A stretch of 24,724 nucleotides of DNA, taken from a virus. This document shows, piece by piece, positions 2,870-14,882 of the stretch. The notes beneath the pieces were generated by a model. That model was given only the letters and a program-made list of their open reading frames with translations. It was not told the origin of the DNA and ran no database searches. A program made the translations under genes and the position numbers. Location: positions 1 through 24,724 of IMG/VR virus record IMGVR_UViG_3300027782_000346. The stretch is one strand, 5' to 3'. Positions within the stretch are counted from its first letter, which is position 1, and every line of letters starts with the position of its first letter.

Positions 2870-4077
2870 TAAGCAAAACTCCATTCTATCTTTGGCGTGC
2901 TTAGCATACCGACCGCGCCGCTCACTGCGTCAACATAGTCGTCATGCGGTGCGCTTGGAAATGCGACGACTTCATCTATAAAATCACGAGCCCACGCACC
3001 GGCAACGATGCGCACTGCGCCCGCTTCCGCTCGTCCGGCCCATGGCATCGCCCGTTGTACTTTGTCGCCCTTCACATCGATTCCGCGGAACGGTATCGTC
3101 GCCAACTCCGGAACTCTGCGCAGTTCTTGAACCGCCGCCAAGCCGTTCATGGCTTTTTCAATGCCGTGCGTCGTGTTCTCTTCGCTGCGCATCGTCGATA
3201 TTATCACGCGTCGCACGTCTGGCCATTCTGCGCGCATGTGAATGCCGTCGGCTATGTAGAGTACCCCTTCGTGCAAACAACACCGCACGGAGGCAGTATA
3301 GTCCGCTGATTGCTTTGTACTCGTTGCCAAGTCCCAATAGCGAAACCACTTGGCGCCGTGTGGTCGAATGTCGCCGACCCGTAGCCACTCACGACGAAAC
3401 AAAGCGCCGATTGGGTCGGTGAATTCGCCGTCCACTTCTTGGCGATACATCTCAGACGTCATTGACTGTTTCAACGTCGACACGAAGGTGTCATCGAGAA
3501 AGGTGTTGTCGGTCGTTTTACTTCGGATTGTGGCGTAGTCGCGATGGTCGCCAGTAAACAACTCATAGACCCAATCTTTCCCGCGTGGCGTCGTCGACAT
3601 CCAAGCTCGACCCGGTGCTTCGCGCAACGTCGCAATACTCAGTGGCCATATGTCTGCGTCCATCATAGCCACCTCGTCAAGCCAAAGCCACCCCGCATTT
3701 GCACCACGCAGTCGGTCAGGGTTATCAGCACTGCGAAATATGATGCGTCGGTCGCCGATAAGCCGTAGTTCCATCTCTGACTTGTTCCACGCGGTGACGA
3801 TGCCGGCCTTTGCGGTCAACTTGAGAATGGTCTCCATTGCGCCAAGCCGAAGCATGGGATACGTTGGAGCCACGACCAGTCCCGTGGTACCCTTCGGTTG
3901 GCGCAGTGCTTCCACCGCGCCGGCTCGGGTCTTACCAGAGCCACGACCGCCAACGAATAGCCGGAACCGTGCGTTACTCGCCCAAAACGCGCGCTGGGGT
4001 GACGTTTGCGAGCTGTGGCGTATCGTCGGTGCTAAGGTCGATGGTGTAGTCGGTTGGAGCGTTGGTGTTAACGACAT
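2869..4077 (-). CDS. terL: Terminase large subunit (ATPase and nuclease)
   Basis: This is a 402-residue packaging motor. The ATPase half shows Walker A 'GGRGSGKT' at residues 43-50, Walker B 'WLWLDE' ending in D134/E135, and a coupling motif 'STTPRG' near residue 162. The C-terminal half has the RNase H-like nuclease pattern, with 'RYWDLATSTKQSADYTA' and a terminal 'HDDYVDAVSGA'. It cuts concatemeric DNA and drives it through the portal encoded next door. The ATG at 4077 is the only start before Walker A, so the first 34 codons overlap the end of the small terminase gene, which is a long overlap for this genome. The length is at the short end for the family. Identification is secure; the cutting mode (cos or headful) cannot be read from the protein. 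Confidence 0.93.
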   Translation of the reverse strand: MSLTPTLQPTTPSTLAPTIRHSSQTSPQRAFWASNARFRLFVGGRGSGKTRAGAVEALRQPKGTTGLVVAPTYPMLRLGAMETILKLTAKAGIVTAWNKSEMELRLIGDRRIIFRSADNPDRLRGANAGWLWLDEVAMMDADIWPLSIATLREAPGRAWMSTTPRGKDWVYELFTGDHRDYATIRSKTTDNTFLDDTFVSTLKQSMTSEMYRQEVDGEFTDPIGALFRREWLRVGDIRPHGAKWFRYWDLATSTKQSADYTASVRCCLHEGVLYIADGIHMRAEWPDVRRVIISTMRSEENTTHGIEKAMNGLAAVQELRRVPELATIPFRGIDVKGDKVQRAMPWAGRAEAGAVRIVAGAWARDFIDEVVAFPSAPHDDYVDAVSGAVGMLSTPKIEWSFA

Positions 4078-8649: not shown

Positions 8650-9113
8650 CGCTCGACCTTTTCGCCAGTGAACGCCATCATCAACTGAATCAGATCGCGG
8701 TCAGCACTGCGAACTTTCCATCGTCGCCACTTCGTCGCCAGCGCTGCGAACTCTCCACCCTTGGTGATGCTCCCATCGAGGCGCACGTTGAACCGCTCGA
8801 TAGCCTCCCGTCGCTTCAGCGCAGAGCCAGGGCCGTACGCAGACGATGCGCTTTCCATCATGGCTACAAAGCGCTCCTGTGTTTCTATCTGGGATGCGCG
8901 CAGTGCGTCACGCCATGCGGTTTCTAAGTCGTCCACCTCGGTGGCCACGATGATGAGTGAGCCGTGCACATCCTTGCGACACAGTGCGCAGAGCTGCGGG
9001 TATGGCGTCGGTGTATCCATCGCCCGTGCGCAGCAAAGACACATCAGAGGCGCCGTCTTTTTTTCGCTTGGACTATGCGTTGGTTTGTTTGTATCGTTGA
9101 ACAGTGGCGTCAT
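8646..9113 (-). CDS. Zinc-ribbon hypothetical protein
   Basis: This encodes 155 residues from ATG 9113; the first 41 bases overlap the primase-helicase end, with GAAGGG about ten bases upstream. Residues about 25-45 contain two Cys pairs, 'CLCC' and 'CALC', about 14 residues apart, a likely zinc ribbon. The rest is charged and probably helical ('LETAWRDALRASQIETQERF', then 'LKRREAIERFNVRL'). It sits between a replicative primase-helicase and a VRR-NUC nuclease in a coupled operon, so a role in DNA replication or recombination is plausible. I do not recognise a named family. A downstream ATG at 9044 would remove the first Cys pair, so the longer start is preferred. Confidence 0.6.
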   Translation of the reverse strand: MTPLFNDTNKPTHSPSEKKTAPLMCLCCARAMDTPTPYPQLCALCRKDVHGSLIIVATEVDDLETAWRDALRASQIETQERFVAMMESASSAYGPGSALKRREAIERFNVRLDGSITKGGEFAALATKWRRWKVRSADRDLIQLMMAFTGEKVER

Positions 9114-11247
9114 AACTCAACATCCCTTCTTCGGTCATTGCGTCTAATTGACGTTGGCATACTTCGATAGCTATTTGTGTCCTCGTCGCAATAGCTTTAG
9201 CGGTCAAAGATATTCCGCCAAGCGCTCCCAAGATTCGTTGTGAAAATACCGCGTTTATACTAATACGTTCACTCTGTTCACTCTTGACCGGTTTGATTGA
9301 TTCTATAGCCTCAAACCTATCGTTCACTCTTGATTCACTCTCGTTCACTCTTGGTAACTCTTGGTAACTCTTTACCTCACTTTCGTTCACTCTCTCTAAA
9401 GAGTTACCAGAGTTACCATAGTTACTAGAAGTACTAGAGTGAACAGAGTGAATGATATTAGTAATAGGAAGAGTGCTATAACGACCGTACGAAACACGTT
9501 GAACCAGCTTATCTTCGAGTAGTCTGCGTAGGTGTTTCTTGATAACCGATTCTTCGCGGCCAAGCTCCGTAGCGATTTCTTTTGGCGACCAAGTGTAGGT
9601 TTGGTTTTTCTCCATCACGTCGTACACTGCCCGTCGCTCCGAGCCAGTCGCCGCCAACACTTTGGACTTCGGGTCAACCACGTGGCTTCCAAGCATGTCA
9701 TCCCATGCAAGCTCAACACGATCCACGCCGGCAATGTTTCGGTCAGTCATGCGAAGGATTGACACATATTCGCTTGCGGGGTCTCGTGTCAATAACCACA
9801 TCGCATCGACGGCCCCGCTGATGCCTGTAGAGCCGCTGATTTTGTCGAACGGGTTATCGTCTTTGGTTATCTTGGTTTTGTTTGTGTGATGCACAACAAT
9901 GATTGTTATATTCCGCCGTTGTGCAATGCGTTGAATCTGTTTGAGTGCGTCGTAGTCCGAAGAGTACACTGGCGTACGTGGGTCGACCGGCTCTCGCCAC
10001 TGCGCCAACACGTCGATGATAACCACGCGGATATCAGGGTTGTTGTCGAGACGGTTTTCTAAGTCTTGACCGGCGAGGACTCCGCGGTTTGGCCAATCCT
10101 GATTAAAACCGAAATACAAGTTTTTTGGCCAGTCCCCGAAGTTCATCGAAGACAATCGACGGTGCACGCTGTTCTTACTCATCTCAAGGTCGAGATACAA
10201 CACGCTGCACTTTGTTTTTACTTCGAATGTTTTGAATACTTCGGTGCCGGTGGCGACAGCGACGGCGAGGTGCAAAGCCAAGAAGCTTTTGCGACTCTTC
10301 GGAGCGCCGGCGAGGATGTAGCACCCCGTGGTCATGATGTCGTCAACAATGTACTCGACCGGTGCGACGTCTTCTTTTTGCATGTCCGCAGCACTGTAGA
10401 TAGTTGGTAATGCATGAACGAACTCGATGTCGTAAACATCCTCAAGGTTGTGCAAGTCTTCCGCCGACCAAAGTCGCATAAAGTCCGCAAGATCGCCCTT
10501 GTCGGATAATCCAAGATTGACCACGCGCACCTTGTAGCCAACACTGCGCAACTGCGTACGCAGAGCCGCGGCCGCCGTCTTCCCCTTCGAGTCACAATCC
10601 ATAGCAATGACAATCTCGCCGGTGTACGCTTTGCGGACGTCTTCGAGGAGTGCTTCGGGCATCGCCTTCTCGCCGCCACCGGTGACGCTGAATGCAGCGA
10701 CGCCGTGCGACTGGGCCGCGACGGTCGATGCTTCGCCGTTGCACAGTACCAGCGGGAAGCCGCCTTTGTTGGCAATGTCGACTGCTTCGGGGAACTTGTA
10801 CAGACATTGCTTATAGCCGGGCAAACTTTTAAATACCGGCGTTTTACCATCGATGTATCGATATCGAACACCGTTGACCGAATCGATGACAAAGCATGGT
10901 CTGCGCTGATGCTCGCCAACGGCCCACCCAGCCAATCTAAGGGCTTCCAAGGTCAACCCGTGACTCTCTGCATACCCTTCGTGCGTGGTGGCCGTCTTGG
11001 TGTCAATACTTGGCGCAATCTTTGGAAGCGTGACGCCAAGGTGTTTGGCCAATTGATACAGTGACCCGCCTTTGTTGGCGACGTGGTCGAACCACTTGCC
11101 ATGCTCGGGACCGTCGATGGTCAGACTGAACGCGTCACTGTCCGAGCCGGTGCGGTACGGTGAACCGCTTCGATACTTCCCCTCCCCGACATCGCGGAGG
11201 TTGTGCGCACTGCGTAGTGCGGATATAACTTCGTCGGCAGTGCTCAT
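9073..11247 (-). CDS. Bifunctional primase-helicase (Toprim plus RepA/RecA-like ATPase)
   Basis: This 724-residue protein is the main replication enzyme in the window. Residues 1-80 resemble a degenerate primase zinc-finger region that has lost its cysteines ('KWFDHVANKGGSLYQLAKHLG'). The Toprim domain lies at about 165-260, with 'LCNGEAS' (E172) and 'AMDCDSKGK' (D217, D219), the metal-binding residues of DnaG-type primases. The ATPase has Walker A 'AGAPKSRKS' (313-321) and Walker B 'VVIID' (408-412), in the RepA/RecA-like helicase style. A winged helix follows at about 535-590, then a Ser/Asn/Glu-rich linker (about 598-660) and a second helical domain. The DNA for that linker contains a cluster of 9-bp repeats. 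The start overlaps the stop of the upstream RHH gene by ATGA. Confidence 0.87.
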   Translation of the reverse strand: MSTADEVISALRSAHNLRDVGEGKYRSGSPYRTGSDSDAFSLTIDGPEHGKWFDHVANKGGSLYQLAKHLGVTLPKIAPSIDTKTATTHEGYAESHGLTLEALRLAGWAVGEHQRRPCFVIDSVNGVRYRYIDGKTPVFKSLPGYKQCLYKFPEAVDIANKGGFPLVLCNGEASTVAAQSHGVAAFSVTGGGEKAMPEALLEDVRKAYTGEIVIAMDCDSKGKTAAAALRTQLRSVGYKVRVVNLGLSDKGDLADFMRLWSAEDLHNLEDVYDIEFVHALPTIYSAADMQKEDVAPVEYIVDDIMTTGCYILAGAPKSRKSFLALHLAVAVATGTEVFKTFEVKTKCSVLYLDLEMSKNSVHRRLSSMNFGDWPKNLYFGFNQDWPNRGVLAGQDLENRLDNNPDIRVVIIDVLAQWREPVDPRTPVYSSDYDALKQIQRIAQRRNITIIVVHHTNKTKITKDDNPFDKISGSTGISGAVDAMWLLTRDPASEYVSILRMTDRNIAGVDRVELAWDDMLGSHVVDPKSKVLAATGSERRAVYDVMEKNQTYTWSPKEIATELGREESVIKKHLRRLLEDKLVQRVSYGRYSTLPITNIIHSVHSSTSSNYGNSGNSLERVNESEVKSYQELPRVNESESRVNDRFEAIESIKPVKSEQSERISINAVFSQRILGALGGISLTAKAIATRTQIAIEVCQRQLDAMTEEGMLSYDATVQRYKQTNA
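9267..9453. repeat. Iteron-like cluster of 9-bp direct and inverted repeats
   Basis: Within the primase-helicase gene, GTTCACTCT occurs at 9267, 9276, 9322, 9343 and 9385 (with ATTCACTCT at 9333). Its inverse AGAGTGAAC/T occurs at 9436 and 9445. A second word, GGTAACTCT, occurs at 9353 and 9363, with its inverse AGAGTTACC at 9400 and 9409. Spacings of 9, 10 and about 21 bases place several copies on one helix face, and left and right halves are mirror images around about 9395. The protein encoded here is a low-complexity linker, so coding does not obviously require the pattern. It resembles the iterons of an origin located inside an initiator gene, as in lambda gene O. Confidence 0.7.
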
Positions 11248-13591: not shown

Positions 13592-13607
13592 CGAGTTTTA
13601 AAACTCG
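13592..13607. repeat. 16-bp perfect palindrome over the Dam stop codon
   Basis: CGAGTTTT is followed directly by its inverse AAAACTCG, spanning the TAA stop of the Dam-type gene and lying 24 bases upstream of the -35 box of the 13540-13568 promoter. It could be an operator or the core of a weak terminator; no T run follows. Confidence 0.4.
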
Positions 13608-14143
13608 CATATTTTGCCCAAATCTGCGAACGCACTGCGAAACCTGTCGGGCTCATTGCCAACGTAGAGCGCCACTTGACCGCGTGTGTTTCTGTCGACG
13701 GTCATGCCTTGCGGTTGCTTAAATTGGATGCGTCGCGCAAAGATGCACATCGCTGCGGTGATGCTCATCGCTTCATGAAACCACGTGGCGTCGGTTGCGT
13801 TGTTGACGAGGATAACGCCATGTGACCAGCTGACACCGTGTTCGATGACCACACGATGCACGCATTGCCCAATGACGAGACGTGCATAGGGTGGATTAGC
13901 AAAGAGCGTGCGCACCTTTGGCCATGAACGATGTAGTGCGTTGTTCTCTCGTGTGTAATACGTCGCGGCTTGCACGGTCGTCTGGGCTTCGTCGCAACTA
14001 AACGGGTCGAGGTCGATGGTGCCCAAAGCGGTGCGCACACGGTCAACGATAGGTGCTGGCGTGTACCACTCGCCGTTGTCGCTGCGTGCCGTGTAGTACT
14101 CTTCGGTGAACGGTAGCCGTGGCTCTTCTTTACTGCGTTTCAT
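13598..14143 (-). CDS. Phage Dam-type DNA N6-adenine methyltransferase
   Basis: This encodes 181 residues from ATG 14143, with AAAGG nine bases upstream. The N-terminus has the hallmark order of the phage Dam-like family: 'EWYTPAPIVDRVRTALG', 'IDLDPFSCDEAQ', 'AATYYTRENNAL', then 'LFANPPYA' (the catalytic NPPY). Later 'GVILVNNATDATWFHE' and 'QFKQPQG' are also typical. The enzyme transfers a methyl group from AdoMet to adenine in DNA, probably to evade host restriction. No endonuclease partner is encoded nearby. The gene overlaps the preceding tandem-HTH gene by 14 bases and ends in a palindrome. It is the second methyltransferase of the window and belongs to a different family from the one at 5642-6727. 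Confidence 0.85.
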   Translation of the reverse strand: MKRSKEEPRLPFTEEYYTARSDNGEWYTPAPIVDRVRTALGTIDLDPFSCDEAQTTVQAATYYTRENNALHRSWPKVRTLFANPPYARLVIGQCVHRVVIEHGVSWSHGVILVNNATDATWFHEAMSITAAMCIFARRIQFKQPQGMTVDRNTRGQVALYVGNEPDRFRSAFADLGKICEF

Positions 14144-14882
14144 TCGACCGCACCTTTCTGTATGCAAGCTTATGACGCCAAGTGTATGTTCGTGCGGATG
14201 TATAGTTCACATTCAGGTCGTCCGCAATTTCATGCATCGTCCTCGATGCGAACCATTCCGGGTCGGTCGGCCACGTGATGCGGTATTCGTCGTACTTGGA
14301 ATTGATGCCGTGCTTATGCAAGTAACCGTATACGGTATTTTGTGGGATGTTGAGTGCTATCATGATTTCTGTCGCTGTCCGCTCTTCGTACCATCGCACG
14401 TCACGCGGCCATTTGTGTTTTCTGCGAATGCGCACTTTGTAACCGTTCTGATTTATGTGTCTTCGCATGACTTTCCAACTAACTTGCAACTCGTCCGCAG
14501 CTTGTTGGCTTGTCCGCATCGCGTACCATTCTGGCGACGTCGGGAAGTCCGCAGTAACCCGTGGTCGTCCTCTGCCCTTAGTGACGATACCGTGTTCAAT
14601 GCAATACTCTTTGACTTCGCGCCAAGGCTTCAATAACTCTATACCGATTTGCTTAATTGACCGCAAAGAATACCACGAAAGATCTGTGGGATAGTCTGAT
14701 AACTCTTCGAACTGTAGCACCATGATGGCACCGTGGTGCTTCATACCGCGCACTTCTTCGAAGTGGAAGCCGACATCATCGACAGGGATGTTAAGCGCCC
14801 GCGCAATGTACCAGCTGGGGTTGTCGCTCTGTAGGGTCGCTATCACGTCATCGGTATAGCGGAGGTCGTCTTTGCAAATCAT
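14130..14882 (-). CDS. Tandem helix-turn-helix repeat protein (A)
   Basis: This 250-residue protein is built of repeats. Four units begin with a Pro-containing segment and a conserved Trp-Tyr/Phe: W70 ('DLSWYSLRS'), W119 ('SPEWYAMRT'), W164 ('DVRWYEERT') and W210 ('DPEWFASRT'), spaced 49, 45 and 46 residues apart. Each continues as an HTH-like pattern ('ATEIMIALNIPQNTVYGYLHKHG' and equivalents) followed by a basic tail. A fifth, divergent unit may lie at 18-48 ('NPSWYIARALNIPVDDVGFHF'). Such an array should contact a long DNA site, one recognition helix per unit. It is ATGA-coupled upstream and overlaps the Dam-type gene downstream. I know no named family with exactly this layout. Related units occur singly in HTH endonuclease-associated and phage regulatory proteins, so that is an alternative origin. 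Confidence 0.7.
   Translation of the reverse strand: MICKDDLRYTDDVIATLQSDNPSWYIARALNIPVDDVGFHFEEVRGMKHHGAIMVLQFEELSDYPTDLSWYSLRSIKQIGIELLKPWREVKEYCIEHGIVTKGRGRPRVTADFPTSPEWYAMRTSQQAADELQVSWKVMRRHINQNGYKVRIRRKHKWPRDVRWYEERTATEIMIALNIPQNTVYGYLHKHGINSKYDEYRITWPTDPEWFASRTMHEIADDLNVNYTSARTYTWRHKLAYRKVRSNETQ

Follow-up and report, generated by a model that had tools for sequence, protein, structure and literature searches.

An array of short repeats at 9267-9453 of the window, as we call the whole 24.7-kb record from a viral-contig collection analysed here, is probably an iteron-type replication origin embedded in the gene that encodes its own initiator, where it would be bound by the winged-helix domain wHTH1 of the encoded protein, which would load its own helicase and primase. 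This reading is drawn from sequence comparison, in which the array itself, selection at the DNA level, conserved unit slots, linkage to AAA_25-wHTH1 genes and a joint change of motif and wHTH1 can all be seen. The preliminary description had proposed a candidate origin in the primase-helicase gene, and the comparison lends it support through conservation at the DNA level, a motif/wHTH1 swap and arrays in homologous plasmids and phages.

The repeat array and the gene that holds it

The array consists of twelve AGAGTKAMC units, ten of them exact and two with a one-base change, within the linker of the helicase gene (Table 1). All 10 occurrences of AGAGTKAMC in the 24.7 kb of the window fall at 9267-9444, while dinucleotide shuffles of the window contain 0.32 on average and 2 at most. 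Six of the units are exact copies of GTTCACTCT or its inverse (rows AGAGTGAAC of Table 1), two are one-base variants of it (rows AGAGTGAAT) and four are exact copies of GGTAACTCT or its inverse (rows AGAGTTACC). In this sense, the seven or more copies of GTTCACTCT announced in the preliminary description are reached, with eight, when the one-base variants are included, while the exact ones are only six; its four copies of GGTAACTCT were recovered by exact count, and the direct repeats on the left and inverted ones on the right were seen as claimed, with one orientation per side. The highest count of any exact 9-mer in 187 nt is 6, compared with no more than 4 in shuffles of the whole window (n=30) and no more than 3 in local shuffles (n=500). 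A 17-nt perfect inverted repeat closes the array, with one arm at each end. It is the sole site in the window with at least five identical 7-mers per 250 nt, and each of five contigs of 24-27 kb has no repeat cluster of such strength other than the array. The repeat cluster is real and beyond chance.

Table 1. Coordinates of the array units and of the initiator gene with its domains in the window.
Feature	Positions	Strand	Basis
Iteron AGAGTGAAC	9267..9275	-	motif count
Iteron AGAGTGAAC, 9-bp tandem with 9267	9276..9284	-	motif count
Iteron AGAGTGAAC	9322..9330	-	motif count
Iteron AGAGTGAAT	9333..9341	-	one-base variant
Iteron AGAGTGAAC	9343..9351	-	motif count
Iteron AGAGTTACC	9353..9361	-	motif count
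Iteron AGAGTTACC	9363..9371	-	motif count
Iteron AGAGTGAAC	9385..9393	-	motif count
Iteron AGAGTTACC, opposed orientation	9400..9408	+	motif count
Iteron AGAGTTACC, opposed orientation	9409..9417	+	motif count
Iteron AGAGTGAAC, opposed orientation	9436..9444	+	motif count
Iteron AGAGTGAAT, opposed orientation	9445..9453	+	one-base variant
Primase-helicase-initiator gene, 724 aa, Toprim + AAA_25 + wHTH1 + repeat-bearing linker + wHTH2	9073..11247	-	translation, Pfam, AlphaFold
Toprim (primase) domain, residues 179-255	10483..10713	-	Pfam Toprim_2 E 2.5e-5
AAA_25 / RepA-like helicase core, residues 290-458	9874..10380	-	Pfam AAA_25 E 2.3e-25; Foldseek
wHTH1, residues 534-592, proposed iteron reader	9472..9648	-	HTH_20 match; predicted winged helix; co-change with motif
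Disordered array-bearing linker, residues 597-663	9259..9459	-	pLDDT about 22-29
wHTH2, C-terminal winged helix, residues 658-722	9082..9276	-	AlphaFold model; fast-evolving

The encoded protein belongs to AAA_25 with 89.8 bits against a curated Pfam cut-off of 27, and its Toprim_2 match (25 bits, cut-off 22.1) is placed N-terminal to the RecA-type helicase, which is the architecture of Toprim primase-helicases such as T7 gp4 or P4 alpha. In agreement, T7 gp4 primase-helicase was the nearest structure to the whole model in Foldseek, and DnaB and KaiC were among the matches too. The C-terminal part retrieved generic winged helices alone in Foldseek, none reaching E 0.001. A sequence search of the PDB gave a single weak match, RSF1010 RepA (1g8y, E 0.03), and the PDB search with a profile gave none. 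The low-complexity linker between two helical domains that had been described earlier was borne out as a predicted disordered segment, Ser-rich as well, flanked by two winged-helix folds. The second of these folds, wHTH2, shows no clear tie to the iteron motif and is the least conserved domain in the window family (0.23 vs 0.52 for wHTH1).

The window also contains portal, terminase, tape-measure and minor-tail genes, and all of its genes recognised by family searches are on the minus strand. GATC is strongly depleted in it (24 sites vs about 94 expected), as it is in four related contigs, and a Dam-like methyltransferase gene of the phage is found at 13598-14167. The relative G004 (L078, L079), a contig of 26,493 nt, has a 123-nt direct terminal repeat, which makes it a probable complete genome, about 26.4 kb long; related contigs measure 27.2-27.3 kb.

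Conservation of the array and change of its motif

The window family comprises 14 distinct contigs including the window, of which L005 stops before the linker, and the 13 linker-bearing genes come from the window, 11 other IMG/VR contigs and one MAG contig. All 13 carry the array. Twelve were laid out in full, and the 13th, L058, a near copy of L057, was counted separately and does not enter the layout, codon, base-6 and flank-pairing analyses. One member, L060 (RPRK01000359.1), lies in a Burkholderiales MAG, on a contig of 3.3 kb. A Burkholderiales host was considered on that ground and rejected: the contig is short and none of 398 other genomes of Burkholderiales matches the family, so that L060 probably belongs to a phage and was binned together with the MAG.

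The 12 arrays have 8-14 units over 187-208 nt. On the coding strand, an ACTCT-oriented block comes first in 9-nt steps, followed by AGAGT-oriented units in steps of about 10, 10, 10, 11 and 46 nt when all slots are filled, with a 9-nt pair last. This spacing is near-fixed in 11 of the 12 genes, L006 being partly rearranged, and across the family the units occupy frames 0, 1 and 2 and both orientations. Among ten representatives (L003, L055 and L058 omitted), the same codon is used at shared amino acids in 1224/1410 cases in the linker (0.87) and in 7400/15492 elsewhere (0.48), even though the linker is less conserved in amino acids (identity 0.51) than the remainder (0.59). As judged from these alignments, the linker repeats are under selection as DNA, since they are kept in three frames and both orientations with such an excess of codon identity. 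The preliminary description had asked whether repeats or amino acids are conserved among relatives, and the answer favoured its proposal, as the units persist and the amino acids vary. The motif is nearly missing from the remainder of the family contigs. Short repeats that cluster more than chance allows and are conserved as DNA, as expected of an iteron origin, are therefore present.

Base 6 of the unit is variable, being G, A or T in 152/152 units of the 12 family genomes and C in none, and it tends to be the same within a genome (homogeneity 0.58 vs 0.34 when slots are shuffled, with 0/5000 shuffles as high). In frame 2, G or A at this base produces a stop codon, and the slot there is of the T type or lost. 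A C at base 6 would give GAGTC, a GANTC methylation site; avoidance of GANTC was considered as the cause of the missing C and discarded, genome-wide GANTC counts being mildly low and uneven.

Outside the family, pATHE01, an 8.3-kb plasmid of Caldicellulosiruptor bescii, has the same motif and layout inside an AAA family ATPase (AAA_25) gene, with six tandem ATTCACTCT units, then mostly opposed units and a 9-nt pair at the end. The identity of the plasmid protein, 30%, is limited to helicase and wHTH1, and the protein has a Prim-Pol primase and a C-terminus that does not align to the window protein. A second cluster in this plasmid, six GCGAAAA copies at 2960-3110 (L089), lies between annotated genes at 1629 and 3117, and this cluster near 2960 could also be the pATHE01 origin. 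Two scans of viral contigs based on the motif alone yielded 76 loci, 11 of them with opposed units, and an ORF matching the helicase-wHTH1 profile was found at 11/11 of these vs 2/65 of the others. Nine of the 11 were contigs already in hand, and therefore the blind gain is 2/2: L092, a fragment, and L093, which is 32% identical over 612 residues. In L031, L035, L008, L012 and L013, AGAGTKAMC recurs in one orientation about every 36-37 nt, without association with an AAA_25 gene.

At distant AAA_25 loci, a repeat cluster equalled in 4/100 shuffles or fewer was found 3' of the AAA domain, that is inside the gene, at its stop codon or just past it, in 11/20, and on the longer 5' side in 3/19; the 11 include pATHE01, with the same motif, and two of the loci, L065 and L086, are closely related. 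Apart from pATHE01, these distant genes have arrays of different motifs. The blocks are opposed at or just past the stop codon in L062, L066, L083, L084 and L088, and the array is inside the AAA_25 gene in the cyanobacterial plasmids L085 and L087. No 3' array was found in 9 of the 20 distant loci examined, and L011 and L022 have an AAA_25 ORF with no array recognised at its end. In L069, a Manatee Spring phage with no 3' array, CGCGGAA occurs in both orientations at 3054-3160, upstream of a repA-like gene. The gene end of L081 is uncertain due to a frame break in the match, and L090 and L091, scanned without shuffles, are excluded from every count. Arrays are thus linked to a replication-initiator gene in unrelated replicons, as iteron origins are.

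A search with the L093 protein returned 11 loci with 7 distinct gene sequences, and all 7 were compared. Only L125, from the same contig as L093, has a GAGTRAC array; in the other six GAGTRAC is replaced by 8-12 units of GGCAGAGT, in a layout much like that of L125, with a 9-nt tandem block, opposed units, one flipped unit and a terminal 9-nt pair, which in the GGCAGAGT arrays lies about 50-59 nt past the flipped unit. Between L125 and the six other genes, identity is 0.91-0.98 in AAA_25 and 0.83-0.86 in Toprim/N, and it falls to 0.56-0.58 in wHTH1 and to 0.42-0.47 in its predicted recognition stretch. Within the GGCAGAGT group, wHTH1 identity is 0.93 and 0.97 in the two pairs tested, at equal background divergence. 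The contrast is weaker in the C-terminal domain, with 0.57-0.67 between groups and 0.70-0.73 within. Since wHTH1 diverges with the motif and the C-terminal domain distinguishes the groups less well, wHTH1 is the likely iteron reader, and it is more likely to be the binder than a separate SSB or RHH protein. We consider this array-wide motif change together with wHTH1 divergence, AAA_25 being near constant, as the best evidence suggesting an origin, and it comes from one clade comparison. An exchange of wHTH1 and array as a cassette would explain the pattern equally well, with the same conclusion on the reader.

Proposed mechanism and other explanations

In the mechanism that we propose, wHTH1 of the Toprim/AAA_25 protein would bind the 9-bp units, the two opposed sub-arrays would gather several protein copies, and the long flexible linker would let adjacent units be occupied. 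The fused RepA-like helicase may then be put on DNA that has melted locally, possibly as two rings in a head-to-head arrangement, with the opposed blocks setting two helicase assemblies facing one another, and the fused Toprim domain would prime synthesis by the host polymerase. We infer binding, melting, helicase loading, priming and initiation at the array. The window proteins scanned, a subset of the ORFs, include no recognisable DNA polymerase. The GC-skew analysis suggested in the preliminary description did not favour the locus, as cumulative skew, computed for the window, four related contigs and pATHE01, does not turn at the array in any of them. The array is within the eight AT-richest 200-nt segments in only 3/5 contigs, an inconsistent pattern for a melting element.

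A large stem-loop, either an extruded cruciform or a hairpin of ssDNA or mRNA, in which the sequence of the units would matter mainly for pairing, is an unlikely explanation, albeit the least unlikely of the alternatives to the iteron origin. Folding energies reach -82 to -85 kcal/mol with z of -7 to -9 in 3/3 members, although any inverted array gives such z. The unit variants are mirrored in antiparallel order, with z of about 3 in 4/7 registers among 12 genomes and of 2.0-2.7 in 5/7 registers among six dereplicated ones, both analyses being post hoc; the parallel-order control stays under its mean, and by eye, not computed, a Tsukamurella array has the same unit variants in mirrored order. 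A stem-loop origin also has a precedent, as described for pRN1 (PMC4234260). However, the flanks outside the units have no cognate pairing preference, with 13885/20000 shuffles as good, and the outer pair is partly broken in 5/12 genomes (L003, L004, L052, L055 and L060) by a base 6 mismatch of m1-pY or m0-pZ. Complementary flanks, striking in single folds, were for this reason rejected as a structure signal, cognate pairs being no better than swapped ones. Rfam returned only sub-threshold microRNA-like matches and one viral 3'UTR match, as for any long hairpin. Moreover, a hairpin requires neither a motif shared across slots nor a wHTH1 that changes with it, and the joint switch of motif and wHTH1 argues for sequence-specific reading. 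A stem-loop role may add to iteron binding and would less likely replace it.

It is improbable that the array serves as an operator, bound by the protein or a phage regulator in order to control transcription of the replication operon while replication starts elsewhere. The wHTH domains do look like transcription regulators and many initiators autoregulate too, but the array is at the 3' end of the gene, away from the promoter, its motif is nearly missing elsewhere in the genomes, and it tracks AAA_25-wHTH1 genes through phages and a plasmid with differing primase domains and C-termini. We give somewhat less credit to a centromere-like partition site or a packaging site that by chance falls in the gene and is bound by an RHH, ParB-like or terminase protein: the motif changes along with wHTH1 of the helicase protein, and the scan of window proteins (a subset of ORFs) revealed no ParA/ParB family, even if RHH proteins do recognise short repeats, both direct and inverted, and pATHE01 encodes one of the CopG family. 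Slippage in an unconstrained, low-complexity protein linker, finally, seems highly improbable. Tandem 9-nt repeats can originate in this way and the linker is disordered and Ser-rich; nevertheless, spacing near-fixed in 11/12 genes through three frames and both orientations and the codon identity of 0.87 vs 0.48 contradict it, and several relatives have arrays past the stop codon.

The iteron origin thus preferred would provide a candidate replication start for small environmental phages and for the thermophile plasmid pATHE01, for which we found no prior origin, and it names wHTH1 as the domain that probably reads it. We consider it rather probable that phages and plasmids share a widespread class with a 'self-read' origin, in which iterons of 9-10 bp, arranged as two opposed blocks, occupy the 3' end of the gene for an AAA_25 helicase-initiator and are read by the winged helix of that same protein, the ORF would have overrun the origin to form a linker in several lineages, and motif and reader would change together. 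An opposed array at the 3' end of an AAA_25 gene may then serve as a simple guide to the origins of many phages and plasmids that lack annotation. The natural specificity swap between L125 and L126-type genes makes the co-change of initiator and origin directly testable and, if motif and reading domain do change together, specificity, incompatibility and recombination breakpoints would be predictable from sequence.

Comparison with known systems

Intragenic iteron origins are a known kind. In ori-lambda, iterons in the middle of gene O are bound by the encoded protein (PMC3985674, PMC7466680), and the window has likewise iterons within the gene of the initiator here proposed to bind them. As far as those accounts describe it, lambda O is an initiator only, working with P and the host helicase, and its iterons are 19 bp, whereas in the window initiator, helicase and primase are in one unrelated protein and units are 9 bp in two opposed blocks; the window protein is not of the lambda O type, having no O- or P-family match in Pfam or PHROGs. 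The RepA_N plasmid pSK41 is reported to carry Rep boxes in the central part of rep, where they encode a dispensable linker (PMC5703833). Repeats inside an initiator gene that encode a linker are common to both, but, as far as that account goes, no helicase or Toprim domain is described for pSK41, unlike the window protein, which falls outside RepA_N as it has no such Pfam match. The replisome organisers TP901-1 ORF13 and Tuc2009 Rep bind repeats inside their own genes (PMC8965321), a likeness by description alone, and the text in question does not present them as helicases or primases.

Other systems resemble the window in their protein. PICI/SaPI replicons are described with an initiator-helicase whose C-terminal domain binds iterons, in two sets, at an origin in the 3' end of rep (PMC6092414, PMC7581432). 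By that description their origin follows the gene, whereas the window array is intragenic and the array at the stop codon is seen in distant AAA_25 relatives. For the crenarchaeal plasmid pRN1, a stem-loop origin of about 100 nt is reported just 3' of a Prim-Pol/helicase/wHTH gene, and P4 alpha protein is named alongside it (PMC4234260). The pRN1 protein, ORF904, and that of the window are alike, to the extent described, in joining primase, helicase and wHTH, with an inverted repeat, the essential origin in pRN1, at the 3' end of the gene. Unlike the window, pRN1 is characterized by an archaeo-eukaryotic primase, an SF3 helicase and an iteron-free stem-loop past the stop codon. P4 alpha is a single chain that comprises a Toprim primase, a helicase and a winged helix for origin binding, and it uses iterons, as we propose for the window, although P4 iterons lie outside the gene, unlike the window array. 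In RSF1010, the RepA-type hexameric helicase, the primase and the iteron-binding protein are separate (RepA/RepB'/RepC) and oriV iterons are intergenic; these three proteins correspond to one in the window.

Our search of the open-access literature turned up intragenic origins of other systems, and no report of this array or of a pATHE01/pBAL origin. Within the literature searched, what appears to be new is the initiator class, with primase, helicase and reader in one chain, the opposed 9-bp layout common to phages and plasmids, and the natural swap of motif and reader.
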